Translations under genes and position numbers: made by a program | Assembly (NCBI GenBank): GCA_963678705.1 | Contig: OY783203.1 | Coordinates: 25,774,535 to 25,838,534, forward strand | Length of the DNA stretch: 64,000 nt | Reading direction: 5' to 3' | Origin: Panorpa germanica | Lineage: Eukaryota; Arthropoda; Insecta; Mecoptera; Panorpidae | The notes under the pieces: generated by a model | Database searches by the model: none | The model's input: the letters and a program-made list of their open reading frames with translations, nothing else | What the model was told of the DNA's origin: nothing | Part shown: positions 2,286 through 58,512 of the stretch, one piece after another | Layout of the letters: each line of letters opens with the position of its first letter | How positions within the stretch are numbered: position 1 is the stretch's first letter

Positions 2286-3548
2286 ACACATGGGCTGAAA
2301 AGTCCCGGGCCTAACAAAGAAAACACAGTTTTTTTGGTTCAAAATTAGCTTTATTCATCAACGTAATTTCCATCAAGAGCAACGCAATCATTCCAGCGCC
2401 GCTCTAACATTTCAATACCACTTTTGTAGAACGATTTATCTTTTGCCTCAAAATAGGCCTCAGTTTCAGCGATAACCTCTTCATTCGTGCGAAATTTCTT
2501 ACCGGCGAGCATTTTTTTCAGGTCTGCGAACAGGCAGTAGTCGCTGGGAGCCAAATCTGGCGAATACGGTGGTAGTTTTGCCATTGTTTTGATTGACTTG
2601 TGACACGGTGCGTTGTCTTGATGAAACAAATTTTTTTTCTTTGCCATGTGCGATCGTTTCTTTGCAATTTCGGCCTTCAAACGCTCTAATAACGCTATAT
2701 AATATTCACTGTTAATGGTATTTCCTTTCTCAAGATAGTCGATGAATATTACACCACGCACATCCCAAAATACCGAGGCCATAACCTTTCCAGCCGATTG
2801 TTGTGCTTTCGGGCGCTTTGGACGAGGTTCACCAGTTGCTGTCCACTCAGATGACGATCGTTTTGATTCCGGAGTGAAGTGATGGATCCATGTTTCATCC
2901 ATTGTCACATATCGACGCAAAAATTCCGGTTTGTTACGTTTAAACATGGCCAAACACTACTCAGAATCATCAACACGTTCTCGTTTTTGGTCAACAGTAA
3001 GCAAACGCGGCACCCACTTTGAACAGAGCTTTCTCATAGTCAAATGCTCATGCAATATAAAGCCAACACGTTCTTTTGATATCTTTACGATGTCAGCTAA
3101 CTCACGCAACTTCACTTTTCGATCATTCAAAACGATTTTGTGGATTTCTTTTATGTTTTCTGGTGTTACCGCCTCATTTGGACGTCCACTGCGTTCTGCA
3201 TCATCGGTGTCTCTACGACCACGTTTGAAGTCAGCAAACCAACGTTTTATTGTTGTTTCTGATGGAGCGGAGTCCCCATAACACTTTTCAAGCCATTGCT
3301 TCGCTTGAACGGTATTTTTTCCCATCAAGAAGCAGTGTAAAATTAAAACACGAAATTGTTTTTGATCCATTGTTTTGAAAATAACAAAAGTAGCGTCACT
3401 CTTAGCACAATAACTCACAAACTACTGAATAGAATATCATGAAATTTTAACAGCTGTCTTTTGAAGGTTAGTATTAACTGAAAAAAGGTGACTGCAATAA
3501 AACTAGCGCCATCTATGTGTTAGGCCCGGGACTTTTCAGCCCATGTGC
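2286..3548 (-). mobile_element. mariner element with intact inverted repeats
   Basis: The element is 1263 bp, bounded by 30-bp terminal inverted repeats (left 2286-2315, right 3519-3548) that differ only at the outermost base. Both carry the core GGGCTGAAAAGTCCCGGGCC. TA dinucleotides at 2284-2285 and 3549-3550 fit the mariner TA target duplication. The size and the single transposase gene between the repeats match a full-length mariner. The ends look mobilisable in trans, but the transposase is broken (next entry). Confidence 0.95.
2351..3370 (-). pseudogene. mariner transposase, one nonsense codon and 30-bp deletion
   Basis: Read on the minus strand from the Met of MDQKQFRV (3370), the frame runs 340 codons including the stop. 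The N-terminal half has the paired helix-turn-helix DNA-binding region with the KRWFADFKRG and RSGRPNEAVTPEN words. The catalytic half has TMDETWIHHF, HQDNAPCH and YSPDLAPSD, the three aspartates of the mariner D,D34D triad. Two defects are visible. An in-frame TAG at 2957-2959 follows VDDSE where relatives have Gln. About ten residues are missing between the second and third aspartates, leaving 24 residues between them instead of 34. The product would be inactive even with read-through. Confidence 0.93.
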
Positions 3549-26200: not shown

Positions 26201-29200
26201 TTACTTTGGAGTAAAAGGAACCTTAAATAAACCTTCATCTTGACTACTTGAAGGAGTTGTAGGCCTCAGACCTGTTGGAGACGGTGTACTCCTTTGTGAT
26301 ATTGTGCCAGCTTGAGATGTTGAATGCGACATAGCCATTGGTGATATTGTGCCAGCTGGAGATGTTGAAGTCCTTGGTGGCGGTGGACCCTCAACAGTGG
26401 GTTGAGATGTTGAATCTCTTGGTGCCGTTGAAGTCTGTCGATATGTTGAAACTCTTGGTGACCTGGAAGTCCGTCGATATGATGAAGCCCTTCGTGACTT
26501 TGAAGCCTTTGAAGCCTTTGAAGATGCTGAACGCCTCGGTGTAAATGAAGATTGTGGAAATGTTGAACCCCATGGTGGCATTGAAGCTTGTGGAAATGTG
26601 GAACCCCATGGTGGCATTGAAGCTTGTGGAAATGGGGAACCCCATGGTGGCCTTAAAGCTTGTGGAAATGTTGAACCCCATGGTGGCATTGAAGTATGTG
26701 GAAATGCTGAACCTCTACGTGACATTGAAGTTTGTGGAAATGCTGAACCTCTACGTGACATTGAAGTATGTGGAAATGCTGAACCTCTACGTGACATTGA
26801 AGTATGTGGAAATTCTGAACCTCTACGTGACATTGAAGTATGTGGAAATTCTGAACCTCTACGTGACATTGGATATTGTGGATATGCTGAATCTCTTGGT
26901 AACATTGAAGTTTGTGGATATGCTGAATCTCTTGGTGACATTAAAGCTTGTGGAAATGTTGAACCCCATGGTGGAATTGAAGTATGTGGAAATGCTGAAC
27001 CTCTACGTGACATTGAAGTATGTGGAAATTCAGAACCTCTACGTGACGTTGAAGTCTGTGGAAATTCAGAACCTCTACGTGACGTTGAAGTTTGTGGAAA
27101 TTCAGAACCTCTACGTGACGTTGAAGTTTGTGGAAATGCTGAATCTCTTGGTGACGTTGAAGTCTGTGGATATGGTGAAGCTTTTGGTGACTTTAAAGTC
27201 TTTGAAGATGTTGAACCGCTTGGTAACTTTGCAGTCTGTGGAAGTGCTGAACCACTTGGTGAGTTTGAAGTCTGTGGATGTGGTGAAGTTTGTGGTGGTT
27301 TTGAAGTCTGTAAATGTGGTGAAGCTTTTGCTGACTTTGAAGTCTGTGGATATGGTGAAGCTTTTGGTGACTTTGAAGTCTTTGAAGATGTTGAACCGCT
27401 TGGTAACTTTGCAGTCTGTGGAAGTGCTGAACTACTTGGTGAGTTTGAAGTCTGTGGATGTGGTGAAGTTTGTGGTGATTTTGAAGTCTGTAAATGTGGT
27501 GAAGCTTTTGCTGACTTTGAAGTCTGTGGATATGGTGAAGCTTTTGGTGACTTTGAAGATCTTGAACCGTTTGGTGAGTTTGCAGTCTGTGGAAATGTTG
27601 AACCCTTTGGAGAAATTGGAGCCTGGGGAAATGCTGAATCTCTTGATGATATTGAAGTACGTGGAAATGCTGAACCACTTGGTGACGTTGAAGTCTGTGG
27701 ATATGGTGAAGCTTTTGGTGACTTTGAAGTCTTTGAAGATGTTGAACCGCTTGGTAACTTTGCAGTCTGTGGAAGTGCTGAACCACTTGGTGAGTTTGAA
27801 GTCTGTGGATATGGTGAAGCTTTTGGTGACTTTGAATATTTGGAACCGTTTGGTGAGTTTGCAGTCTGTGGAAATGTTGAACCCCTTGGAGAAATTGGAG
27901 CCTGGGGAAATGCTGAATCTCTTGATGATATTGAAGTACGTGGAAATGCTGAACCACTTGGTGACGTTGAAGTCTGTGGATATGGTGAAGCTTTTGGTGA
28001 CTTTGAAGTCTTTGAAGATATTGAACCGCTTGGTAACTTTTCAGTCTGTGGAAGTGCTGAACCACTTGGTGAGTTTGAAGTCTGTGGATGTGGTGAAGTT
28101 TGTGGTGATTTTGAAGTCTGTAAATGTGGTGAAGCTTTTGCTGACTTTGAAGTCTGTGGATATGGTGAAGCTTTTGGTGACTTTGAAGATCTTGAACCGT
28201 TTGGTGAGTTTGCAGTCTGTGGAAATGTTGAACCCCTTGGAGAAATTGGAGCCTGGGGAAATGCTAAATCTATTGATAATATTGAAGTACGTGGAAATGC
28301 TGAACCACTTGGTGACGTTGAAGTCTGTGGATATGGTGAAGCTTTTGGTGACTTTGAAGATCTTGAACCGTTTGGTGAGTTTGCAGTCTGTGGAAATGTT
28401 GAACCCTTTGGAGAAATTGGAGCCTGGGGAAATGCTAAATCTCTTGATGATATTGAAGTACGTGGAAATGCTGAACCACTTGGTGACGTTGAAGTCTGTG
28501 GATATGGTGAAGCTTTTGGTGACTTTGAAGTCTTTGAAGATGTTGAACCGCTTGGTAACTTTGCAGTCTGTGGAAGTGCTGAACCACTTGGTGAGTTTGA
28601 AGTCTGTGGATATGGTGAAGCTTTTGGTGACTTTGAAGATTTGGAACCGTTTGGTGAGTTTGCAGTCTGTGGAAATGTTGAACCCCTTGGAGAAATTGGA
28701 GCCTGAGGAAATGCTGACCCTCTTGATGATATTGAAGTACGTGGAAATGCTGAACCACTTGGTGACGTTGAAGTCTGTGGATATGGTGAAGCTTTTGGTG
28801 ACTTTGAAGTCTTTGAAGATATTGAACCGCTTGGTAACTTTGCAGTCTGTGGAAGTGCTGAACCACTTGGTGAGTTTGAAGTCTGTGGATGTGGTGAAGT
28901 TTGTGGTGATTTTGAAGTCTGTAAATGTGGTGAAGCTTTTGCTGACTTTGAAGTCTGTGGATATGGTGAAGCTTTTGGTGACTTTGAAGATCTTGAACCG
29001 TTTGGTGAGTTTGCAGTCTGTGGAAATGTTGAACCCCTTGGAGAAATTGGAGCCTGGGGAAATGCTAAATCTATTGATAATATTGAAGTACGTGGAAATG
29101 CTGAACCACTTGGTGACGTTGAAGTCTGTGGATATGGTGAAGCTTTTGGTGACTTTGAAGATCTTGAACCGTTTGGTGAGTTTGCAGTCTGTGGAAATGT

Positions 29201-30538
29201 TGAACCCTTTGGAGAAATTGGAGCCTGGGGAAATGCTGAATCTCTTGATGATATTGAAGTACGTGGAAATGCTGAACCACTTGGTGACGTTGAAGTATGT
29301 GGATATGGTGAAGCTGTTGGTGACATTGAAGCTTGTGGAAATGCTGAACCCATTGGTGACTTTGAAGTCTGTGGAATTTCTGAAACTCTTGGTGACATTG
29401 AAGCCTGGTGAAATGCTGAACCTGTTGGTGACATAGAAGCCTGTGGAAATGCGAAACCTCTTGGAGACGTTGAAGTCTGTGGATGTGGTGAAGCTTTTGA
29501 AGACGTTGAAGTCTGTGGATGTGGTGAAGCTTTTGAAGACGTTGAAGTCTGTGGATGTGGTGAAGCTTTTGGTGATTTTGAAGCCTTTGAAGGTCTTGAA
29601 CCCCTTGGTGACTTTGAAACCTGTGAAAATTTTGAATCCCTTGGTGACATTGAAGCTTGTGGAAGTGCTGAAACTCTTGGTGACATTGAAGCCTGGTGAA
29701 ATGCTGAACCTGTTGGTGACATTGAAGCCTGGTGAAATGTTGAACCTGTTGGTGACATTGAAGCTTGTGGAAATGCGAAACTTCTTGGAGACGTTGAAGT
29801 CTGTGGATGTGGTGAAGCTTTTGGAGACGTTGAAGTCTGTGGATGTGGTGAAGCTTTTAAAGACGTTGAAGTCTGTGGATGTGGTGAAGCTTCTGGTGAT
29901 TTTGAAGCCTTTGAAGATCTTGAACCGCTTGGTGACATTGAAGCCTGTGGAAATGCGAAACCTCTTGGTGAAGCCTTTGAAGGCATTGAAGCTTGTAGAT
30001 ACGATAAAGTATTTGGAAACAATGCAGCCTTTGCAGACTTTGAAGTTTGTGGAGATGGATCCCTTGGAGGCTTTTCTGGTTTTGCCGTTGATGATTTTGA
30101 AGATGATGGCCCAGGTTGATCCAGTTGACGTTGTAACTCGTCCGGTTCACGTTCACTAACAAAACCACTTGAACCAGCAGCTGATGTAACTGATGATCTA
30201 GAAAACAATCTCTCAGATTCCTTAATTTTGCGAAAAACTCTATCGTTATTTGGTGACAAATAGCCATTCAATCCAGTTATTATATTTCCATATGTTTGCG
30301 TTTCTTCCAAATAAGAACTTTCTAGATTATACAAGTTTTCATCACAAGCTAATAGCGTAGATCTCAAATATTGTTGTTCAATCATGAGATTATACATTTG
30401 TGAACATATAGTTGCTTGTCTATCTGCTTCAGGTAATTCTTTAAGTTCTTCAGGTTCTTCAGGTTCTTCAGGGTTTACAGGTTCTTTGGGGTTTTCAGGT
30501 TTCTCTGGGCTACTATCAGGAGATGTTTCTGGTTCCAT
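26201..30538 (-). CDS. Eaf6/MEAF6-like domain protein with giant 12-residue repeat tail
   Basis: This is a 1445-codon intron-free frame, ATG at 30,536-30,538 in AAAAATGG context and TAA at 26,201-26,203. Residues 1-40 are acidic, with PEEPEEPEELKELPE. Residues ~45-125 match the Eaf6/MEAF6 family: SSYLEETQTYGNIITGLNGY, then DRVFRKIKESERLFSRSSVT and SAAGSSGF. That family is a small subunit of NuA4/TIP60 and MOZ/MORF/HBO1 histone acetyltransferases, normally about 150-200 residues. Residues ~188-1360 are about 100 copies of a 12-residue unit, roughly S-P-K/R/S-A/G-S-x-F/Y/H-P-Q-T/A-S-x, basic and almost free of Asp/Glu. SRRGSEFPHTSM units near residues 1135-1280 carry R-R-x-S. The C terminus is non-repetitive and ends EGLFKVPFTPK. 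Lack of introns suggests a retrocopy of MEAF6 that gained the repeats. Function is inferred to be nuclear and chromatin-related; expression is unknown. Confidence 0.8.
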   Translation of the reverse strand: MEPETSPDSSPEKPENPKEPVNPEEPEEPEELKELPEADRQATICSQMYNLMIEQQYLRSTLLACDENLYNLESSYLEETQTYGNIITGLNGYLSPNNDRVFRKIKESERLFSRSSVTSAAGSSGFVSEREPDELQRQLDQPGPSSSKSSTAKPEKPPRDPSPQTSKSAKAALFPNTLSYLQASMPSKASPRGFAFPQASMSPSGSRSSKASKSPEASPHPQTSTSLKASPHPQTSTSPKASPHPQTSTSPRSFAFPQASMSPTGSTFHQASMSPTGSAFHQASMSPRVSALPQASMSPRDSKFSQVSKSPRGSRPSKASKSPKASPHPQTSTSSKASPHPQTSTSSKASPHPQTSTSPRGFAFPQASMSPTGSAFHQASMSPRVSEIPQTSKSPMGSAFPQASMSPTASPYPHTSTSPSGSAFPRTSISSRDSAFPQAPISPKGSTFPQTANSPNGSRSSKSPKASPYPQTSTSPSGSAFPRTSILSIDLAFPQAPISPRGSTFPQTANSPNGSRSSKSPKASPYPQTSKSAKASPHLQTSKSPQTSPHPQTSNSPSGSALPQTAKLPSGSISSKTSKSPKASPYPQTSTSPSGSAFPRTSISSRGSAFPQAPISPRGSTFPQTANSPNGSKSSKSPKASPYPQTSNSPSGSALPQTAKLPSGSTSSKTSKSPKASPYPQTSTSPSGSAFPRTSISSRDLAFPQAPISPKGSTFPQTANSPNGSRSSKSPKASPYPQTSTSPSGSAFPRTSILSIDLAFPQAPISPRGSTFPQTANSPNGSRSSKSPKASPYPQTSKSAKASPHLQTSKSPQTSPHPQTSNSPSGSALPQTEKLPSGSISSKTSKSPKASPYPQTSTSPSGSAFPRTSISSRDSAFPQAPISPRGSTFPQTANSPNGSKYSKSPKASPYPQTSNSPSGSALPQTAKLPSGSTSSKTSKSPKASPYPQTSTSPSGSAFPRTSISSRDSAFPQAPISPKGSTFPQTANSPNGSRSSKSPKASPYPQTSKSAKASPHLQTSKSPQTSPHPQTSNSPSSSALPQTAKLPSGSTSSKTSKSPKASPYPQTSKSAKASPHLQTSKPPQTSPHPQTSNSPSGSALPQTAKLPSGSTSSKTLKSPKASPYPQTSTSPRDSAFPQTSTSRRGSEFPQTSTSRRGSEFPQTSTSRRGSEFPHTSMSRRGSAFPHTSIPPWGSTFPQALMSPRDSAYPQTSMLPRDSAYPQYPMSRRGSEFPHTSMSRRGSEFPHTSMSRRGSAFPHTSMSRRGSAFPQTSMSRRGSAFPHTSMPPWGSTFPQALRPPWGSPFPQASMPPWGSTFPQASMPPWGSTFPQSSFTPRRSASSKASKASKSRRASSYRRTSRSPRVSTYRQTSTAPRDSTSQPTVEGPPPPRTSTSPAGTISPMAMSHSTSQAGTISQRSTPSPTGLRPTTPSSSQDEGLFKVPFTPK
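26460..29980 (-). repeat. in-frame 36-bp minisatellite array inside the Eaf6-repeat gene
   Basis: About 100 degenerate 36-bp units encode the 12-residue repeat. Some units are 27 bp (SPNGSRSSK), so all length steps remain multiples of three. Distinct subfamilies are grouped: PPWGS units (26,560-26,700), RRGS units (26,700-27,130), then mixed SPKASPYPQTS / SPSGSAFPRTS / SPNGSRSSK units. Confidence 0.95.
27480..29300 (-). repeat. 801-bp higher-order repeat within the coding array
   Basis: Modules of 57 and 60 residues recur in a fixed order. The same sequence at 27,721 and 28,522, and another at 28,000 and 28,801, are each exactly 801 bp (267 codons) apart. These spacings support tandem duplication of a composite unit. 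Boundaries are approximate. Confidence 0.8.
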
Positions 30539-42770: not shown

Positions 42771-44688
42771 TCCAAATTCTTGTGAACCACGAGAAATTGA
42801 TTGCCTTTGGTTTTCCCGTACACTCTCATGCACAGCAGCGATCTTCTAAGCAGATCTTGCGTTTTGGTGACGTAGCGGTGTTGACTGATTATTTATTAAA
42901 TCGGTAGACTCAATTTTGGTTCTGGCGAGAGTAGAATAAAACGCTCGTCTTGCGCGGATCGTTTCTCGAACGAAGCACATGCTTTGATAATTTTTTTTAG
43001 TGATTTGCACACGTTATTCAACGCCATGGTGATTTGCCGTAGAATACAAAACAAATGACAACAAATTTGACAGATATCCCTTTAAAACATGGTTGCTATA
43101 ACCTAACTAATTTTGAACGTCCTTATTAATGTGTCATTCTAAGGTAAATAATTTCATTAAATAAAAGTTAAAAATTGTTGAATGGTGTGGTCCGAAAATA
43201 ATGTATTGTGGGTTGTTTAGTAAATGTTGGTTAATGTTCTTCTTGGATGAGGATTAGGAAGTAAATACGAAATACTTCTAGACACAATAAAAACAAGGTT
43301 TATGAATATGTAATTAATTGAAATAGAAATTAGTTCTAGCTAAGGTATGAATAAAATATACGTTTGTAATTAATCTGAATAACTAGTAAATAATTAGTTT
43401 TGACAGCCTTGAGATTTAGGTTAAATTGAAGTTTGGGAGGAAGAATTGTCATCGTATTGAATTGAATCAAGAGAAGGAATTTACTTTTATACTTAAACAG
43501 TATGTACTTTTTAAAATTATTACGTTTACTATTTTGATTAAAAACAAGATAGATAAATTACCAAAAAATTAGTTTGCCAATGGGTTTTTGAACCAGGTCT
43601 TAGTTTCTATAAAACTATATTACATATTGATAAACCTTAAAGACGTACTTCGAGAAATATTACTCAAATTGTATTCACGCATATTTGACATTACTATGAT
43701 ACGAAAAAATGTTTCTAGGTACTTAGCTGTTACAAGGATTTAAGAATAATCACCCAAAGAACAATTTACTATCTCAAGCCCTGCCAACCAGCATAGCCAT
43801 ACTATACGAGAATAAGTAATACGTAAAACAGTGTAAGTATTTACAGTCTTGTTCGTTTTGTTATTTCGCAGTTTTGTGGCCACGAGATTTTTGACGCTGT
43901 ACGGGTATACGTCAACGGTAGAGTGTCAATTTAAAAGGAATATTGTAGGACGTAGGTAGATCTGATGAACACAACACCCGTTAAACACGATTCGTGTATT
44001 AAAGGTTAGTCTAACATAACAAATGTTATCTGTTACGTAACAATATTACCTAAAATGCAATCTTTTGTGACCTGTTATATAACATTTTGAATAATAAATT
44101 CCTTTTCCCAGTAGTATAATCATAAAACTATTAAACTTGACCATTTTACGAAGTATGTAATCTTAGGAAGTCCTTATTAAGGATTAAATGTTAATAAAGT
44201 ATCATGTCAATGTACCGCCAATAATTCTCTCCAAAGAAAAATAATATTATAAAATCAACCGCACAAAAGTGCTAATAACAAGTGGTATCAATAGACGCAA
44301 GAATTAATTCTACATCTACTGACAGTACTTATTCTCCTTAAGTACTTAAAACATAAGAGATATAGTGCAATTAGTGTGGAGTAGTGTACTAGTGTAGTAA
44401 AATTGCAATATTGTCTATTGTTTTTTTTTTTTGCCAAAATATCCATTGTATTGTGCAACAATAGATTATATTGTAATTACTTAAATTGTGTTCACCAGTA
44501 ATAGGAATCATGTTACTAGTGAAATGTAAATACTTTAATTTTAAATTAATTAATTTGTGGATCAAAAATCGGTATGTGTGGAGAGTGAGCGAGCGTCCTC
44601 TCAAGGCCCAGATTATTAACAGTCCAGTTACGCTTTGGTGATGAGTCATACCAATGACACATTTTACCCCTTTAGTAAGGCAAGTAAA
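42771..44688 (+). repeat. S block, copy 1, complete
   Basis: Full version of the S block, including GTTTTGTGGCCACGAGATTT and the stretch to the gag start. It leads directly into LINE A copy 1. It has no long open frame. Confidence 0.8.
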
Positions 44689-45128
44689 ATGCAGAGAACT
44701 CCGCCCAAGCAAAGCCAAGCGAGAAGAAAGGAACAGATGGAACTAGAAAGTCAGTCATTACATCCAATGACAACTATTACCTCTCAAGAGGAAAACAATG
44801 GTTTAAATACCGAAAAAGAAAAACAGTTATATACTGCACTGAAAAAGATTACATCAGGATACAGATAAGGGTAAAGGATTACATCCTTTATGTGAAAAAG
44901 ATGGCATCATTGAATATCTCAAAGTTAAGGGACTAAACGTGTTGGATGCAGTAAACATCATTAAAAAAGATACGAGGATCCAGGAAAATGGTGAAAAAGT
45001 AACTACAAAGCAAGGACTACCACTTTTCATGTTTACCTTTGACAACAAAGACTCGGTTAATTCCACAATGTAAGAGATGTCAGAAATATGACCATACACA
45101 AAGTTACTGCAAGAAAGATCCGAGATGT

Positions 45129-45135
45129 GTTAGGT
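45129..45135. other. left target-site duplication of the P element (GTTAGGT)
   Basis: GTTAGGT here and at 48,856-48,862 flank the element. The uninterrupted site GATGT-GTTAGGT-ACGCTGG is present once in LINE A copy 2 at 55,532-55,538. Confidence 0.95.
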
Positions 45136-45185
45136 CAACACCTCCTAAATATACAAAGCCTAACAGCGATTCAGTCAATGGTATG

Positions 45186-45193
45186 TGACGTCA
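45186..45193. promoter_or_regulatory. TGACGTCA palindrome, left subterminal
   Basis: A perfect CRE-type octamer within the conserved subterminal inverted segment, repeated at 48,809-48,816. It may be a transposase or host bZIP binding site; no binding evidence. Confidence 0.5.
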
Positions 45194-45524
45194 TCACTTG
45201 TAGTCATATGCTGCTGAGTTCTGCTATCGGTATAAGACAGTTTGTTTGAAAATGTTAGTATCATATAGGGTATTGAACAAAGTTTCTGGTTACAAATTAT
45301 TAAGGACTATCATTTTTAAATTATTAATTAGTTTGCAATTAATGAATTGTTTGTTTATGAATTGGTTTTTGTAAGGGTTTTATAATGAGTAATTAAAGAA
45401 GTAAAATACATCGAAAATTTAATTTTAAACTAAGTAACATTTCTAAATCGTAACATTTCTACAAAAATTAAAATAAATAGACTAGTAACACACATATGCA
45501 AAAAAGGAAAATGGTATACCTTCC

Positions 45525-45527
<3 letters not shown>

Positions 45528-45593
<66 letters not shown>
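45528..45593. repeat. (TA)n microsatellite inside the P element
   Basis: About 33 TA units just beyond the transposase stop codon. Confidence 0.95.
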
Positions 45594-45598
<5 letters not shown>

Positions 45599-45660
45599 AA
45601 AATAATAATAATAAAAATGTATTATATAAAAATATTAACTTTATTTTTCATATATTTCTT

Positions 45661-48352
45661 TTAACAATATACGAGTGTATACAATAACAACTTTTCAACT
45701 ATTAAATAATTGTACATAACTAAATTGACTACAGAAGGTGTCGGACAAATCAGGCCTCCACGATCAAGATTTTTTATTAAATTGTATGACTGGTGTAAAG
45801 AAATTGTCTTATCAATTGTTAAGATTTCTTTACACTTGCTACACTTAATTTTTTTTAAAACAGCATGACAACAATACCCCGCTAAATATGTAATTACAGG
45901 TAATAATTCTTCTACATTGGCTATATCCATTTCGCTAATTACTACCGATTGCAATGGTGTCATTGCTTCATTAGTATCTTCAATATTATCTAGAATATTT
46001 TCTGGACATTGTAATGTTTGCACTGTCATTGCTCTATCTTTAATTATTAGTTCTAGTTTTAAATTTGATTGAAGACGTAATTTTTTTTCACACTCTAGAA
46101 CTTGTCTCATGGAGATGTGATATTGAGACCCAGCTAATTGCCTATATTTGCCAAATCTATCTTCAAGTAAATCTGTTTGAATTTTACCTGGTAATATATA
46201 AGTAAATTTTAGTTCGTCTATGCAATAACGACACAATTCTAACATTCCGTATGTAGTTTGTCTTAACGCATCGTGCGTTTGATTAGTAAAGCAACCACTG
46301 GAAAAATTCATTTGTTGCCACGCAATAAATTTGTTTAAAAATATAAATTTCTGATCTGATTTGTCCTTTGTTAAAGGTGTCATGTAAATGTTACTTTTGT
46401 GTAAACCTTTGTATACAGTTTTAACGTTCATAACATCCCACCATTTGCAAATGATTGAAATAAAAATTGACGTATCATTATAATACTCAATATTATGCAG
46501 ACGTCCTTTTTCATTCAAACCTTGAACTACAAATTGGTTGAAAATTTTCAACACTAATTTCACATTTTGGCGCTCAAGATTTAAAGGTGCAATGCTCTTA
46601 AATGTTAACCCGTGTGCATAAGAAATGATTGCAGTATTTTCTATTTCATATAACTTTTTAAGAGCAGAAAATGATGCAGTTCTACAATTATCACCTTTTT
46701 CAAAATCTGGAAAAAACATACACTGTCCAATATTTTTTTGATTTAACCAGTTATTTCTAATGTTTTTAAGAAGATGAACCGAATCAATTAAATAGAAGAG
46801 TGGCCTATTAGCATCCTGGGGATGCTGATAAAGAAAAGATGTTTTATTAGGAACAGCGAAACAACTCATAGCTTTTCTATTTATTGCATTGTTATCTGTA
46901 ACAACACAAATGACTTTGAATCCCGCCTTTTCTAACCCTAATATAAGCTTTTTTATCAAATTGTATAAAGTTACATAATTTATTGTTTTAATTGGTACAA
47001 TATGAACAACATCTTTAAATTGTGATAATAAACTGGAAACCATAAAAACAAAGGCACTTGTAGCCGCAGTATTTGAATCAAACGATGCACCAACAATAGA
47101 TCCTCCCTTATAGTCAAAAAATGGTTTAATGTGTATCTCATCAATCATTAGTATAACTGTTTTTTCAAAATCTTGAAGATAGCTTACTCTATTACTAGCG
47201 TACATCAAAAAATTTTTATCATTAGTTTCTAACTGCGGATTTACATGTAAATCATTGCATACTTTCTTCAATGTGTTAGGATGCGGAAATATAAAATATC
47301 CACTTTGTCTTAAGAACTTGTAGGCATGTGGTGAAATTGTATTTAATAAAGAAGCAAATACTAATAACTCAGGGGAATATCTAAAATTATTTGTAGGACA
47401 TATGCACAATTCTATTTGCCCCCTTAAGAAATGTAAAATATTTTCATTCTTGTTGGTTACAACGTCCTTTAACAATTCATCGATTAAATGAAATGTAGCA
47501 CTTCTTTTGCATGTCTTACTGTCTGCCTTGATTAAAACAATGGTTTCTAAAATATCAGTAATCTCATTGTAGCTAGTTATTTTCTGTGGTAATAATTTTG
47601 GGCCTATTTTCTTAATTAATGTACTCTTTATAAAGACCGATAATGCCAAATGTTTATCTATTGTAATAGAATATTGAATTAAGGGTTCAGGTTCAACAGT
47701 TAAATAAAAAATGCAAATAAGCTCTTTATCTGGCAAATACTGATGTGACCATCTCTCAGAAACACCGTATTTTCTAATACAATCCAGAAGGTTGTTTATA
47801 TTATTAATTCTACGATCGGTATTATAGGCATTTGCTGAATTTATACTGTTTATGATCGCTGAATTCAATAATCTATTTTCTCTTTCTTCGGCTTTTGAAT
47901 CGGGAGATACTCTATTTGTTGAAGGGCCCGGCGAGGTGTTGCTTGAGGAGCAATATGCAACACTTTTGGGGTAATTTGAAAATACAGAAGGAATAGTTCC
48001 TTTCTTTAGTCTTTTGACTTTAAGAGTTGCTGAAACTAGAACACCAGTTTTGTTGTCATACGCTTTCGATTCTGTTTCAATATCGTCACTTTTGAAATGG
48101 AGTTCGCAGACCTGTAAATAGTTTAATATAATAGTCTTGTGATGGTCGGTATGTTTGTCTAATTAATCTTTCACGCATACGTTCTCATTATCTACTTACT
48201 TTGGATTTATTCGACGGAACAAACGCCTTTCGCTGAATAGCAGAACACCATTTCTTTTTTAAGCATTCGTCTTTAGGGAAGCCAAATACAGATACTTTTG
48301 GACCCGTAGGATAGTTGCCCTTACAAAGTGGAACGCAGCATCTACTTGGCAT
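45661..48352 (-). CDS. P-element/THAP9-type transposase, two exons
   Basis: Exon 1 is 48,352-48,200 and exon 2 is 48,111-45,661, with an 88-bp intron (donor GTAAGT, acceptor TTTACAG). The product is 867 residues. The start is the ATG at 48,350-48,352 because THAP domains begin Met-Pro-x-x-Cys; an upstream GTG is not needed. THAP zinc-binding (C2CH) module: RCCVPLC, FGFP, and across the splice VCELHF, then KKGTIPSVF (AVPTIF-like motif). The RNase-H-like core follows: MIDEIHIKPF (Asp ~375), VVTDNNA (Asp ~457), YLIDSVHLLKNIRNNW, and LPGKIQTDLLEDRFGKYRQL (Glu ~701). The C terminus has YLAGYCCHAV, CSKC and DRGGLI. No stop or frameshift is seen, so it may be active. It cuts and rejoins DNA at the element's ends. 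Confidence 0.92.
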
Positions 48353-48808
48353 TTTGTTGTCTAATAATTTACACTTTAAGAAGTCACTCACTCGACAAAC
48401 TGGTTATTAATTGTGGAATATTATAATTAGTTTTATATATTACACAGTTAGCTAAAATTCTACACACGTAATGATCAGTAAAACATTTACAGCACATACA
48501 CCATACAAGGTTTTCATACACAACACTAATTTTTAGATTAAAACAGTTTAATGTTTAAACCAAATATAAACAAAAAAAAAACACAAACACAGTTACTATA
48601 AATACACCCTCTTAAGACTGATTATTTATATTTTTAATTAATTATATATTTTATACGATTTTTTTAACCGAAATAACATGGAAGTAAATACAATACGTAA
48701 TGCACAGAGAGATTCTAAATTGTACTAAATCAATACCCTTAAAGTACATTTCAAGTATATTTAGGTAGAATTGTGTAAAACATCTGGTGTTCAGATGACT
48801 ACAAGTGA

Positions 48809-48816
48809 TGACGTCA
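48809..48816. promoter_or_regulatory. TGACGTCA palindrome, right subterminal
   Basis: Second CRE-type octamer, about 460 bp upstream of the transposase start codon, so it could serve in transcription as well as transposase recognition. Confidence 0.5.
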
Positions 48817-48855
48817 CAAAATCGCAGTTAGGCCTTGTATATTTAGGAGGTGTTG

Positions 48856-48862
48856 GTTAGGT
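48856..48862. other. right target-site duplication of the P element (GTTAGGT)
   Basis: Matches 45,129-45,135 exactly. Seven bases rather than the eight of the Drosophila melanogaster P element. Confidence 0.95.
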
Positions 48863-49258
48863 ACGCTGGCAAACTCAATACCATGAACTGCACACCTAGC
48901 AAAAATACAACGCCCATATGCGTCAACTGTAAAGGAGATCATCCAGCTAGCTACAGAGGATGTGTAGTGGCCATAGAATTTCAAAATAGAAGAGACAATC
49001 TTTTAAAGCCGAAGCAACAGACACAACCCAGACATACGCAAGAAAAGGACATTTATCCTGTTTCTAGTATAAGCTGCGAAATGTCAAGAAAACTATATAG
49101 CAAAGCTGTCAGCGGAGAAGAAGAAAAATCAACAATTGAAGGAATGCTTACCTTGATTTTAAATAACATGAATGAACAGCAAATTGTCAAAAAATAAATA
49201 TTTGAAAAAATTCAGAGTTTAGAAATTGAATTGAAAACAATGCGACAATGAAATAGAA

Positions 49259-51834
49259 ATGAATAACGTGGTAACAATAGCTGTCTGGAATGCAAACGGA
49301 TTACAGGGACGCATTCATGAACTAGAGCTATTCATGCGCTTACAGAAAATTGATATATGCCTTGTGTCGGAAACACGTTTTACATGAGAGTCGCAAATTA
49401 AGCATAATAACTTTAACATATACAAGTCAAAAATCATCCGGAAAATAAAGCAAAGGGAAGAACCGCCATAATAATTCATGGAAGTATCAAACATAACGCT
49501 CAAGTAAACATTGAAACAGAGGCAATGAAAGTGACAAGAGTGTCAGTGCATATACAAAACCAAAGGTACAAAATATCAGCCATATATTGTCCACCGATAT
49601 ATAACTTAAAAAAAGAAAACTACGCAAACCTGTTCAAAACATTAGGCAACAAATTTATTATTGGTGGAGATCTCAACGCCAAAAATACTTTTTGGAGCTC
49701 TCGATTAACAACGGCCTAAGAAATAGAGCTCTACCAGGCTGGATGCGAACAAAAGTACGACTTTTTATCCACAGGAATGCCGACGTACTGGCCAACAGAT
49801 TGTAATAAAATTCCAGACCTGATTGACTCCTTCATTACTAAAGTGTAGTGATAAAACAATATCTTCGGATCACTCTTCGATTATACTCACCATTAGCAGC
49901 TGAATAATAATAAACACTGCACCACCAAGCCTTTATAATAATAGAACCGACTGGGAAAGATATCGTGAAAATCTTCAGCAAAGAATAAACCTACGAACAC
50001 CACGACATCGACATCGACTTTTTAGTGAAAGAAATCCAAAACTCTGCGTGGAGAAATACTCCGGTAGTGAAAAGTAGAGATAAGAGAAGTTGTAAGTAAA
50101 AAGCGAAGAGCTAGAAAGATATGGCAAATGACTAGAGCACCACAGTACAAAACCACACTAAATTCATTAACAAACAAGTTAAAGGAGCTGCTGAAGGAAT
50201 TCAAGAATGATAACTTAAGTTGGTACCTGAGCGGACTCTCTGCAGAAAAAGACACAGACTACTCACTGTGGAAAGGAGCAAAAGCAATAAAGAGAGCGAA
50301 GAATCAGAACCCACCTATCAAAATAGGAGACGGATCTTGGATGGTTAATAAAGTCGACTTATACGCTGATCACTTAGAAAAGACATTTAAACCGTATCCA
50401 CGACAGACTACTGAAGAAGAAATCATATGCAGCAGAAGATTGGACAACCATAAAAATCTTCCAGTCACTCTTAAAGAACTGAAGAATTTAATAGAGAGCG
50501 ACTTGAACACTAAAAAGGCAACAGGATTTGATTTTATAGCAGGTAAGGTAATAAATAAACTACCTGATGTAGGCCTGAGAAAGCTCCTATACCACTACAA
50601 TACAGCTATCAGACTACTATATATTCCAAGTCAATGGAAAGTAGCTGAAGTGATAATGTTACCTAAACCCGGTAAACCCCAAATGAGGTTACAAGTTATC
50701 GACCAATCTCATTATTACCAGTCATCTCAAAAATATTTGAGAAAGCTGAAGAGACTGAACCCAATAATATCTGAAAAAAAAAACTAATCCCTGACCATCA
50801 ATTCGGATTCAGAAGTAAACACACGACCATAGAACAAGTCCATCGGATTACCAATATTATTGAAAAAGCACTGGAAACTCAACAACTGTGCTCAATCGTC
50901 TTTCTTGATGTGACACAGGCATTCGACATGGAATGGCATCAAGGATTAGTATACAAACTGAAAAAAGATTTACCTGGTGATTGGTACCATAATCTTAAAT
51001 CTTATCTCGAATGTAGACACTTAAGAGTGAAAGTGGACGATGAGTACTCAGATATGAAACAGATAAAAGCAGGAGTGTCGCAAGGCAGCGTCCTTGGCCC
51101 AGTTCTGTACTTATTATATACACGGGATATACCACAACCTGAGAACACTACAATAGCCACATTCGCAGACGATACAGCGATAATGGTTGTTGGAAAAATG
51201 AGTAAGAGGTTACCAGAAAACTACAGAATTCGCTAGACGAGGTTTGCAAATGGACTAAATGGCGAATTAAGCTGAACGAAGCCAAATCCACGCACATCAA
51301 CTTTACAAATCGAATAACTACTTCTCTCACAGTAACTATCAACAGCCAAAAAATACCTTATTTCAACACAGCAAAATACCTTGGCATGACGCTAGACGCG
51401 AAACTCAAGTGGAAGGAGCATGTTAAGATAAAAAGAGAACAGCTTAATAATAAATTCAGGAAAATGCACTAGCTTTCTAGAGAAAACATTCTCAGCTTAC
51501 AGTGCACAACAAACTGTTATTGTACGAGTATAAACAAATACTGAAACCCATATGGACTTATGGTATAAAACTTTCGGGTTGTGTACCAAGAAAACAAATT
51601 TAACAAAAATCCAAACTTTCCAAAACAAAGTACTACGGAGCATTTACAAATGCGCCCTGGTACATACGGAATAATAATTTACACCGAGATCTAAAGATGC
51701 CCACCGTAGACGAAGAAGTCAGGAAGGAAGCAAGCAAATATCTATTGCGACTGCAGAACCACCAGAATGAAGAAATTGATGAGGGCCAAGACGGAAGATT
51801 GAAGAGGACCAAGACGGAAGACTTGACCCTGTGA
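49259..51834 (+). pseudogene. LINE A copy 1 ORF2 (endonuclease + reverse transcriptase), broken
   Basis: It starts MNNVVTIAVWNANGLQGRIH (apurinic endonuclease), then CLVSETRFT and an in-frame TGA, YCPP, IGGDLNAKNTFWSSR, and a further stop. The RT region has KKATGFDFIAGKVINKLP, FLDVTQAFDMEWHQ, AGVSQGSVLGPVLY and an intact FADD active site (TIATFADDTAI). A one-base deletion in a C run (AAACCCCAAATG, about 50,675) shifts the frame before the palm. The C-terminal part has YLGMTLDAKLKWKEH. Several lesions, including the endonuclease stop, are shared with copy 2. Confidence 0.85.
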
Positions 51835-53229: not shown

Positions 53230-55090
53230 GCGAGAAATGCACAGCAACGATCTTTTCAGCAGATCCTGTGTCTTTGTGACGTAGCGGTGTTGACTGATTA
53301 TTTATTAAATCGGTAGACTCAATTTTGGTTCTGGCGAGAATAGAAAGCTCGTCTTGCGCGGATCGTTTCTCGAACGAAGCACATGCTTTGATAAATTTTT
53401 TTAGTGATTTGCACACGTTATTCAACGCCATGGTGATTTGCCGTAGAATACAAAACAAATGACAACAAATTTGACAGATATCCCTTTAAAACATGGTTGC
53501 TATAACCTAACTAATTTTGAACGTCCATATTAACGTGTCATTCTAAGGTAAATAATTTCATTAAATAACTGTTAAAAATTGTGGAATGGTGTGGTCTGAA
53601 AATAATGTATTGTGGATTGTTTAGTAAATATTGGTTAATGTTCTTCTTTGATGAGGATTAGGAAGTAAATACGAAATACTTCTAGACACAATAAAAACAA
53701 GGTTTATGAATATGTAATTAATTGAAATAGAAATTAGCTCTAGCTAGGGTATGAATAATATATACGTTTGTAATTAATCTGAATAACTAGTAAATAATTA
53801 GTTTTGACAGCCTTGAGATTTAGGTTAAATTGAAGTTTGGGAGGAAGAATTGTCATCGTATTGAATTGAATCAAGAGAAGGAATTTACTTTTATACTTAA
53901 ACAGTATGTACTTTTTAAAATTATTACGTTTACTATTTTGATTAAAAACAAGATAGATAAATTACCAAAAAATTAGTTTGCCAATGGGTTTTTGAACCAG
54001 GTCTTAGTTTCTATAAAACTATATTACATATTGATAAACCTTAAAGACGTACTTCGAGAAATATTACTCAAATTGTATTCACGCATATTTGACATTACTA
54101 TGATACGAAAAAATGTTTCTAGGTACTTAGCTGTTACAAGGATTTAAGAATAATCACCCAAAGAACAATTTACTATCTCAAGCCCTGCCAACCAGCATAG
54201 CCATACTATACGAGAATAAGTAATACGTAAAACAGTGTAAGTATTTACAGTCTTGTTCGTTTTGTTATTTCGCAGTTTTGTGGCCACGAGATTTTTGACG
54301 CTGTACGGGTATACGTCAACGGTAGAGTGTCAATTTAAAAGGAATATTGTAGGACGTAGGTAGATCTGATGAACACAACACCCGTTAAACACGATTCGTG
54401 TATTAAAGGTTAGTCTAACATAATAAATGTTATCTGTTACGTAACAATATTACCTAAAATGCAATCTTTTGTGACCTGTTATATAACATTTTGAATAATA
54501 AATTCCTTTTCCCAGTAGTATAATCATAAAACTATTAAACTTGACCATTTTACGAAGTATGTAATCTTAGGAAGTCCTTATTAAGGATTAAATGTTAATA
54601 AAGTATCATGTCAATGTACCGCCAATAATTCTCTCCAAAGAAAAATAATATTATAAAATCAACCGCACAAAAGTGCTAATAACAAGTGGTATCAATAGAC
54701 GCAAGAATTAATTCTACATCTACTGACAGTACTTATTCTCCTTAAGTACTTAAAACATAAGAGATATAGTGCAATTAGTGTGGAGTAGTGTACTAGTGTA
54801 GTAAAATTGCAATATTGTCTATTGTTTTTTTTTTGCCAAAATATCCATTGTATTGTGCAACAATAGATTATATTGTAATTACTTAAATTGTGTTCACCAG
54901 TAATAGGAATCATGTTACTAGTGAAATGTAAATACTTTAATTTTAAATTAATTAATTTGTGGATCAAAAATCGGTATGTGTGGAGAGTGAGCGAGCGTCC
55001 TCTCAAGGCCCAGATTATTAACAGTCCAGTTACGCTTTGGTGATGAGTCATACCAATGACACATTTTACCCCTTTAGTAAGGCAAGTAAA
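53230..55090 (+). repeat. S block, copy 2, nearly complete
   Basis: Matches 42,790-44,688 with few differences. Offset about 10.4 kb, the difference from 6.68 kb being the P insertion. Leads into LINE A copy 2. Confidence 0.8.
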
Positions 55091-55873
55091 ATGCAGAGAA
55101 CTCCGCCCAAGCAAAGCCAAGCGAGAAAAAAAGGAACAGATGGAACTAGAAAGTCAGTCATTACATCCAATGACAACTATTACCTCTCAAGAAGAAAACA
55201 ATGGTTTAAATACCGAAAAAGAAAAACAGTTATATACTGCACTGAAAAAGATTACATCAGGATACAGATAAGGGTAAAGGATTACATCCTTTATGTGAAA
55301 AAGATGGCATCATTGAATATCTCAAAGTTAAGGGACTAAACGTGTTGGATGCAGTAAACATCATTAAAAAAGATACGAGGATCCAGGAAAATGGTGAAAA
55401 AGTAACTACAAAGCAAGGACTACCACTTTTCATGTTTACCTTTGACAACAAAGACTCGGTTAATTCCACAATGTAAGAGATGTCAGAAATATGACCATAC
55501 ACAAAGTTACTGCAAGAAAGATCCGAGATGTGTTAGGTACGCTGGCAAACTCAATACCATGAACTGCACACCTAGCAAAAATACAACGCCCATATGCGTC
55601 AACTGTAAAGGAGATCATCCAGCTAGCTACAGAGGATGTGTAGTGGCCATAGAATTTCAAAATAGAAGAGACAATCTTTTAAAGCCGAAGCAACAGACAC
55701 AACCCAGACATACGCAAGAAAAGGACATTTATCCTGTTTCTAGTATAAGCTGCGAAATGTCAAGAAAACTATATAGCAAAGCTGTCAGCGGAGAAGAAGA
55801 AAAATCAACAATTGAAGGAATGCTTACCTTGATTTTAAATAACATGAATGAACAGCAAATTGTCAAAAAATAA
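55091..55873 (+). pseudogene. LINE A copy 2 gag (ORF1), frameshifted
   Basis: It starts MQRTPPKQSQARKKGTDG; an A-run change alters the frame soon after. The zinc-knuckle part is intact in one frame (55,442-55,873): CKRCQKYDHTQSYC, PRCVRYAGKLNTMNC, CVNCKGDHPASYRGC. These are three CCHC/CCHC-like knuckles of a nucleic-acid-binding gag. Confidence 0.8.
55532..55538. other. empty P-element target site
   Basis: A single GTTAGGT in LINE A copy 2, collinear with the duplicated GTTAGGT around the P element. Confidence 0.95.
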
Positions 55874-55934
55874 ATATTTGAAAAAATTCAGAGTTTAGAA
55901 ATTGAATTGAAAACAATGCGACAATGAAATAGAA

Positions 55935-58512
55935 ATGAATAACGTGGTAACAATAGCTGTCTGGAATGCAAACGGATTACAGGGACGCATTCATGAACTA
56001 GAGCTATTCATGCGCTTACAGAAAATTGATATATGCCTTGTGTCGGAAACACGTTTTACATGAGAGTCGCAAATTAAGCATAATAACTTTAACATATACA
56101 AGTCAAATCATCCGGAAAATAAAGCAAAGGGTAGAACCGCCATAATAATTCATGGAAGTATCAAACATAACGCTCAAGTAAACATTGAAACAGAGGCAAT
56201 GAAAGTGACAAGAGTGTCAGTGCATATACAAAACCAAAGGTACAAAATATCAGCCATATATTGTCCACCGATATATAACTTAAAAAAAGAAAACTACGCA
56301 AACCTGTTCAAAACATTAGGCAACAAATTTATTATTGGTGGAGATCTCAACGCCAAAAATACTTTTTGGAGCTCTCGATTAACAACGGCCTAAGAAATAG
56401 AGCTCTACCAGGCTGGATGCGAACAAAAGTACGACTTTTTATCCACAGGAATGCCGACGTACTGGCCAACAGATTGTGATAAAATTCCAGACCTGATTGA
56501 CTCCTTTATTACTAAAGTGTAGTGATAAAACAATATCTTCGGATCACTCTTCGATTATACTCACCATTAGCAGCTGAATAATAATAAAAACTGCACCACC
56601 AAGCCTTTATAATAATAGAACCGACTGGGAAAGATATCGTGAAAATCTTCAGCAAAGAATAAACCTACGAACACCACGACATCGACATCGACTTTTTAGT
56701 GAAAGAAATCCAAAACTCAGCGTGGAGAAATACTCCAGTAGTGAAAAGTAGAGATAAGAGAAGTTGTAAGTAAAAAGCGGAGAGCTAGAAAGATATGGCA
56801 AATGACTAGAGCACCACAGTACAAAACCACACTAAATTCATTAACAAACAAGTTAAAGGAGCTGCTGAAGGAATTCAAGAATGATAACTTTAGTTGGTAC
56901 CTGAGCGGACTCTCTGCAGAAAAAGACACAGAGTACTCACTGTGGAAAGCAGCAAAAGCAATAAAGAGACCGAAGAATCAGAACCCACCTATCAAAAAAG
57001 AAGACGGATCTTGGATGGTTAATAAAGTCGACTTATTCGCTGATCACTTAGAAAAGACATTTAAACCGTATCCACGACAGACTACTGAAGAAGAAATCAT
57101 ATGCAGCAGAAGATTGGACAACCATAAAAATCTTCCAGTCACTCTTAAAGAACTGAAGAATTTAATAGAGAGCGACTTGAACGCTAAAAAGGCAACAGGA
57201 TTTGATCTTATAGCAGGTAAAGTAATAAATAAACTACCTGATGTAGCCCTGAGAAAGCTCCTATACCACTACAATACAGCTATCAGACTACTACACATTC
57301 CTAGTCAATGGAAAGTAGCTGAAGTGATAATGTTACCTAAACCCGGTAAACCCCCAAATGAGGTTACAAGCTATCGACCAATCTCATTATTACCAGTCAT
57401 CTCAAAAATATTTGAGAAACTATTGCTGAACCCAATAATATCTAAAAGAAAACTAATCCCTGACCATCAATTCGGATTCAGAAGTAAACACACGACCATA
57501 GAACAAGTTCATCGGATTACCAATATTATTGAAAAAGCACTGGAAACTCAACAACTATGCTCAAGCGTCTTTCTTGATGTGGCACAGGCATTCGATAAGG
57601 TTTGGCATCAAGGATTAGTATACAAAGTGAAAAAACATTTACCTGGTGATTGGTTCCATATTCCTAAATCTTATCTCAAATGTAGACACTTTAGAGTGAA
57701 AAAGGACGATGAGTACTCAGATATGAAACAGATAAAAGCAGGAGTGTCGCAAGGCAGCGTCCTTGGCCCAGTTCTGTACTTATTATATACACGGGATATA
57801 CCACAACCTGAGAACACTACAATAGCCACATTCGCAAACGACACAGCGATAATAATTGTTGGAAAAATGAGTAAGAGGTTACCAGAATACTACAGAATTC
57901 GCTAGACGAGGTTTGCAAATGGACTAAAAAATGGCGAATTAAGCTGAACGAAGCCAAATCCACGCACATCAACTTTACAAATTGAATAACTACTTCTCTC
58001 ACAGTAACTATCAACAGCCAAAAAATACCTTATTTCAACACAGCGAAATACCTTGGCATGACGCTAGACGCGAAACTCAAGTGGAAGGAGCATGTTAAGA
58101 TAAAAAGAGAACAGCTTAATAATAAAATCAGGAAAATGCACTAGCTTTCTAGAGAAAACAATCTCAGCTTACAGTGCAGAACAAACTGTTATTGTATAAA
58201 CAAATACTGAAACCCATATGGACTTATGGTATAAAACTTTGAGGTTGTACAAAGAAAACAAATTTAACAAAAATCCAAACTTTCCAAAACAAAGTACTAC
58301 GGAGCATTACAAATGCGGCCTGGTACGTACGGAATGATACTTTACACCGTGATCTAAAGATGCCCACTGTAGACGAAGAAGTCAGGAAGCAAGCAAGCAA
58401 ACATCTATTGCGACTGCAGAACCACCAGAATGAAGAAATTCTGCAGCTGCTTAATAACAGAGAGAATCTGCGCAGATTGAAGAGGACCAAGCCGGAAGAC
58501 TTGACCCTGTGA
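55935..58512 (+). pseudogene. LINE A copy 2 ORF2, broken; RT active site FAND
   Basis: The endonuclease part matches copy 1, with the same TGA after CLVSETRFT and a stop after WSSRLTTA. An uninterrupted 367-codon stretch (56,802-57,905) holds the RT domain: KKATGFDLIAGKVINKLP, EVTSYRPISLLPVISKIFEK, HQFGFRSKHTTIEQVH, FLDVAQAFDKVWHQ, AGVSQGSVLGPVLY. The catalytic FADD reads FAND (57,832-57,843 region), replacing the first Asp, so it should be inactive. The tail region has WKEHVKIKREQLNNKIRKMH, then RLKRTKPEDLTL and a stop. Confidence 0.88.

Follow-up and report, generated by a model that had tools for sequence, protein, structure and literature searches.

A reading frame that begins like a small subunit of a chromatin complex and continues for most of its length as a tandem repeat raises the question of whether it is a gene at all and, if so, where it came from and what its product might do. 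MEAF6/Eaf6 is a small, highly conserved subunit of the MYST acetyltransferase complexes (NuA4/TIP60, HBO1 and MOZ/MORF). The frame lies within a 64-kb stretch of DNA, referred to here as the window, and was singled out by an original prediction made from the sequence alone; the coordinates given there are correct, the 1445-codon frame is intact, both peptides cited from it are present and the strand, which had been left unstated, is the minus strand (Table 1). The frame is uninterrupted and intron-free, its start codon lies in the context AAAATGG and an in-frame TAA is located six codons upstream. Inspection of residues 1–36 by eye revealed no signal-peptide-like stretch. The window gene is an old intron-free copy of the gene for a small chromatin-complex subunit that has kept much of the docking region and has had a long repeat tail added to it; this architecture is unusual, and the kind of gene, a neofunctionalised retrogene, is one that is already known.

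Table 1. Features of the window gene and of a GATAD1-like locus with a comparable repeat (window coordinates unless stated otherwise)
Feature	Position	Strand	Basis
Single-exon frame, 1445 codons, probable MEAF6-derived retrogene	26201..30538	-	Frame calls, start context, upstream stop
Acidic Pro/Glu-rich lead, residues 1-36	30431..30538	-	Translation, charges per 100 residues
Eaf6/NuA4 domain (PF09340), residues 50-119	30182..30391	-	59 bits, E 4.2e-16
Predicted long helix, residues 37-94	30257..30430	-	AlphaFold2 model
36-bp / 12-residue tandem array, consensus SPRGSAFPQTSK, ~100 units	26407..29971	-	TRF and segmentation
801-bp higher-order block, copy 1, residues 463-729	28352..29152	-	6 nucleotide differences vs copy 2
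801-bp higher-order block, copy 2, residues 730-996	27551..28351	-	
Arg-richer sub-array, residues 1141-1284 (9 SRRGS units and 3 others)	26687..27118	-	Segmentation, motif counts
Non-repeated C terminus, residues 1400-1445 and stop	26201..26341	-	
GATAD1-like paralogue, first exon with ~50 12-mer S/T/P/K units	L012 3070-5589, G000:C21:39393000-39402000	-	Introns apparently kept

Elsewhere in the window, a Mariner-type transposase is split between two frames (2351-3418, minus strand; PF01359, PF17906), together with a P-element-like transposase frame of 735 codons (45661-47868, minus strand; PF21787, PF12017). Near-identical frames occur in the same order at 44389-51236 and 54692-57905, the last frame of the second set containing a reverse transcriptase domain; a non-LTR-like element present twice, or else a local duplication, probably accounts for them. 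Scanning the 64-kb window for Rfam families and tRNAs gave no hits.

The original prediction depended on a significant match of the N-terminal part to the Eaf6/MEAF6 family. A check against the Pfam NuA4/Eaf6 profile provides it, the score lying well above the curated cut-off of 25 bits (Table 1). NuA4 is the sole Pfam family that the profile search detects in the protein, and the same locus was recovered from the family side in a PF09340 search of the genome. Alignment of residues 36–150 to the MEAF6 of the same genome scores 180, compared with a maximum of 60 in 2000 shuffles; the identity is 52% over 65 residues to this protein and 35–39% to MEAF6s. An AlphaFold2 model of 160 residues (34-row alignment, mean pLDDT 70.8, pTM 0.39) predicts a long helix with a block pLDDT of 91–98 over residues 41–90. 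A Foldseek search of the PDB with this model gave nothing (best E 7.3), which is weak evidence because the model is mostly one helix, and a single-sequence search of the PDB gave nothing real (best E 0.47). A MEAF6 profile that includes the window copy matches the yeast Eaf6 structure 5j9q_F in the PDB (E 0.0019).

In the entire genome (464 Mb, 249 contigs) PF09340 is found at two places only, the window frame on contig C21 and a locus on contig C19. The latter encodes an intact MEAF6 of 274 residues in four coding exons (141, 201, 37 and 446 nt) joined at GT/AG splice sites, and is the intron-containing parent that had been predicted to lie elsewhere in the genome. The window copy aligns unbroken across the first two exon junctions of MEAF6, the third being situated in a weakly aligned stretch. 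Because the frame runs through the MEAF6 intron sites we consider it to be a retrocopy, and the two loci form the pair expected of a retrogene, with an intron-free copy on one contig and a parent of four coding exons on another. The only noteworthy similarity between the loci at the DNA level is confined to exon 2, in two stretches of 46 and 39 bases (E 3.3e-7 and 0.003); two further matches of 17 and 14 bases (E 0.43) are at chance level. Comparison of the copy with its parent over 127 aligned codons gives a dN of 0.62 and a dS of 1.30, near saturation and with some poorly aligned flank included, and pS is 0.62; at such divergence no poly(A) trace or target-site duplication would be expected to survive. 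Retroposition of a MEAF6 mRNA is the simplest account of these comparisons and very probably the right one. The profile match, the intron-bearing parent and the missing introns lend good support to the prediction that a MEAF6 retrocopy has gained a repeat tail.

The top database matches of the C19 MEAF6 are lepidopteran (among the best 120 of 787), and in a tree it falls outside a clade of 18 lepidopterans, beside the flies at low support or in an unresolved position, on a long branch. The branch of the window copy amounts to 10 changes per site, which makes the tree useless for dating. Triosephosphate isomerase is Z-linked in Lepidoptera; when used as a test of Z linkage, it matched contig C10, neither C21 nor C19. 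A search with L-fibroin gave no match, but its control also matched nowhere and the result is hence uninformative.

Yeast Eaf6 has been described as bundling with helices of Nto1 and Yng1 and with a short Sas3 helix in NuA3 (PMC12789522) and as part of the HAT module with Esa1, Yng2 and Epl1 in NuA4 (PMC9643008). Across the Eaf6 core, 57 columns show no variation among 33 other MEAF6s and 20 do vary; the copy equals its parent at 34 of the former and at one of the latter (Fisher p = 1.4e-5 overall), a contrast that is partly regional because 14 of the variable columns fall in the first-helix part. Taken separately, this part retains 3/7 invariant and 0/14 variable columns (p = 0.026) and the remainder of the core retains 31/50 and 1/6 (p = 0.074). 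Docking may be lost or altered, since the first helix is poorly kept (3/22 positions equal to the consensus) and the copy departs from the other MEAF6s at 23 invariant positions; within the YGNIIRGW motif, for example, L has replaced W and T has replaced R. In the mechanism that we favor, a protein-coding retrogene made long ago from MEAF6 mRNA would specify an N-terminal helical domain that continues to dock within the bundle of helices in MYST-type complexes (NuA4/TIP60, HBO1, MOZ/MORF), where it would replace MEAF6 or compete with it. Judged from the residues that have been kept, such docking has about an even chance of being correct.

Circular segmentation of residues 151–1400 into 12-mers at the protein level yields 107 rows, 94 of them complete and 55 distinct, and TRF independently reports 100.5 copies of a 36-bp unit. 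Counted from residue 151, the tail makes up 1295 of the 1445 residues, nearly 90% of the protein. Its description as basic and Ser/Pro-rich is borne out by a net charge of +119 and contents of 25.6% Ser, 16.6% Pro and 9.8% Thr, with a pI of 10.8 for the whole protein, and it is probably disordered. Within these 1295 residues [ST]P occurs 99 times, RRxS 11 times and SRRGS nine times. The original prediction had also drawn a parallel with the S-P-K/R repeats of sperm histones; this analogy was rejected, as the strict motif [ST]P[KR][KR] is present once and KK never, although [ST]P[KR] is found 34 times. Since the tail contains neither KK nor K[KR]x[KR] and has a net charge of only +0.09 per residue, strong DNA binding is not implied, and its composition appears to suit phosphorylation by proline-directed kinases better than tight packing of DNA. 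The ~1200-residue tail of ~100 Ser/Thr-Pro repeats might thus serve the complex as an arm of weakly basic character with many potential phosphorylation sites, either contacting chromatin or adjusting release through proline-directed kinases, a role suggested by composition that we regard as rather doubtful. The likeliest site of action would be the male germ line, because silkworm retrocopies are described as testis-biased (PMC11675541), one member of the e(y)2 pair is testis-specialised and EPC1 and TIP60 act in spermatids, where loss of EPC1 or Tip60 is reported to reduce H4 hyperacetylation and impair elongation (PMC9258737). Germline use, by analogy with the usual behaviour of retrogenes, is a tentative proposal that falls somewhat short of even.

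The array is still turning over and expanding, as seen in the duplication of the 801-bp block with six nucleotide differences. Among recent unit changes, 14 of the 16 variable codons in two repeat families are amino-acid-changing, a third family having none. Amino-acid-changing differences among units are in excess overall, at ~1.9 times expectation (binomial p = 0.0016; 0.73–1.17 in the five other frames), with a pairwise pN/pS of 1.51 versus 0.66–1.11 in other frames. Purifying selection on the exact residues of the tail is therefore unsupported by this excess, and positive selection is not claimed because the units are non-independent and codon choice in repeats is skewed. A genome search that passes over simple repeats and words of very high frequency found the tail DNA nowhere else, the one other match being the MEAF6 exon. 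The excess of amino-acid-changing unit differences, the divergent first helix and the sheer proportion of the protein taken up by the tail would also be consistent with a product that no longer acts with acetyltransferases, in which the Eaf6 helix would be vestigial or serve for oligomerisation and the tail would have a structural or packaging role, for example in sperm or egg. However, the residues that have been kept lie mostly at positions invariant in MEAF6s and the strict SPKK motif known from sperm histones hardly occurs, and we judge this explanation to be unlikely.

The substitutions within the docking region also bear on the possibility of a dominant-negative or decoy MEAF6, the altered domain of which would bind the scaffold while the complex is blocked or moved elsewhere by the tail, for instance so as to limit acetylation in condensing spermatids. 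Such a product would fit a docking region that is partly kept (at the 34 invariant positions noted above) and in which motif positions, the W and R among them, have been substituted, but ordinary divergence of a specialised copy explains these changes equally well, and a decoy is improbable in our estimation.

A search of the genome with the tail protein gave three matches from 33 candidates. One is the protein itself; the other two (35% identity; E 3.8e-7 and 5.0e-5, values that are generous for low-complexity sequence) both fall within a single further frame, which lies on the same contig at a distance of 13.6 Mb. This second frame has an N-terminal four-cysteine zinc element followed by 12-mers such as TPHTSNLPCTSK, which form 52 rows in strict register, 39 of them distinct, with the consensus TPYTSNMPSTSK; no Pfam family was found above cut-off at the locus. 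Its array contains no stops in its own frame versus 5, 125, 11, 5 and 152 in the others, with 3.7 expected, which is weak evidence alone. The N terminus matches C21:37668321 (39%, E 5.3e-11) and C7:18032419 (30%, E 2.5e-5), a fourth match (E 0.08) being dismissed as chance since by eye it lies opposite a cytochrome-P450-like frame. Near C21:37668321 are two adjacent genes of this type (L014 2-2142, plus strand), the first with short ETPAVSKTP-type linker repeats. Downstream of the repeat-bearing frame, in another frame, is the sequence ...YFQVGDIVSFYDKDGDIFYAQIRG..., and the zinc-element paralogues with YFQVGDIVSFYDKDGDIFYAQIRG presumably correspond to GATAD1, which they resemble; the sole test of this name was a comparison of a neighbouring paralogue with a human segment, which gave 65% identity across 60 residues.

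Like the window gene, the GATAD1-like locus appears to be a paralogue of a presumed chromatin factor carrying dozens of 12-mer S/T/P/K units. Unlike the window gene, its repeat precedes a conserved second exon, and because its introns appear to have been kept it is considered to be a duplicate and not a retrocopy. The units of the two arrays share the pattern [S/T]P..S..P.TSK weakly beyond column shuffles (p = 0.009 and 0.02); a common DNA origin is unsupported (p = 0.42), and we take the likeness as probable convergence. The presence of another, seemingly separate case in this genome suggests that such a route may have been followed on more than one occasion. It seems quite unlikely that the lineage has repeatedly made copied subunits of chromatin complexes, a retroposed MEAF6 and a duplicated GATAD1, into 'repeat-arm' proteins, in which the domain would dock and a fast-expanding 12-residue S/T-P array would retarget or phospho-switch the complex, with germline conflict as the driver.

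The GATAD1-like paralogue, which appears to retain introns, indicates that a spliced gene of this genome can carry a long repeat exon, and the window frame could likewise be one large exon among several that are spliced together, or else an intron-losing duplicate made at the DNA level, instead of a single-exon retrogene. The presence of AAG|GTTCC close to the end of the frame is in keeping with splicing, but the Eaf6 introns are absent within the frame, which has its own start in a good context and its own stop, and such an origin is decidedly improbable.

Length and openness alone are weak evidence of coding, because a 36-bp repeat can leave several frames open, and long frames, of 963 and 702 codons, are open on the opposite strand as well. 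No stop interrupts the window gene's frame over 1250 codons, compared with 9 and 15 in the other frames of the same strand and 281, 5 and 2 on the opposite strand. A minimum spanning tree, used as a rough stand-in for history, joins the 55 distinct complete units by 159 changes, among which ~9.8 stops in frame would be expected under neutrality (at the observed transition share) and none is seen. A non-functional retrocopy beside a minisatellite that is open by chance could accommodate the several open frames, the mostly amino-acid-changing variable codons of the two repeat families (and their absence from the third) and the weaker conservation contrast within sub-regions, but it is very improbable given a frame that has stayed open despite so low an identity to MEAF6s and such a pS to its own parent, the missing stops and a pattern of kept residues that tracks MEAF6 conservation. 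These sequence tests argue strongly for a coding gene under selection with an Eaf6 domain.

Taken as a whole, the best explanation, a MEAF6 retrogene whose product docks into a MYST complex and bears a phosphorylatable tail, most likely in the male germ line, falls just below an even chance. If correct, the gene would amount to a natural experiment in which a shared enzyme complex has perhaps been rewired by a disordered arm on a minor subunit. The original remark that no described protein with this layout is known agrees with two length-limited protein searches using residues 36–175: none of 270 word-sharing candidates among proteins of roughly 795–2529 residues reached E 0.01, and none of 206 among proteins of roughly 236–752 residues reached E 1, the latter search being limited in sensitivity because lepidopteran MEAF6s within its length range went unreported too. 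A literature search on MEAF6 retrogenes, insect MEAF6 paralogs and related topics found no such protein among the matches listed.

With MEAF6 and Eaf6 the window protein shares an Eaf6 domain above the Pfam cut-off and the motifs SYLExTQxYGNII and K/R-rich ...ERLFSxSSxTS. It differs from them in its length of 1445 residues, against 165–276 in the best 120 of 787 relatives from a search admitting only about 151–480 residues, in the lack of introns in its gene and in the replacement of the MEAF6 C terminus by the 12-mer array. Sperm histones with SPK(K/R) motifs have been described (PMC9903204), and the tail resembles them in its repeated S-P, in some cases followed by a basic residue, but departs from them in the rarity of the strict motif and in that Pfam finds only NuA4 in the protein. 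In Drosophila, e(y)2/ENY2 of SAGA and TREX-2 forms a retrogene pair in which the parent is described as specialised in testis; the account mentions no repeat tail such as that of the window gene, and in both instances a small shared complex subunit has been copied via mRNA (PMC12611072).
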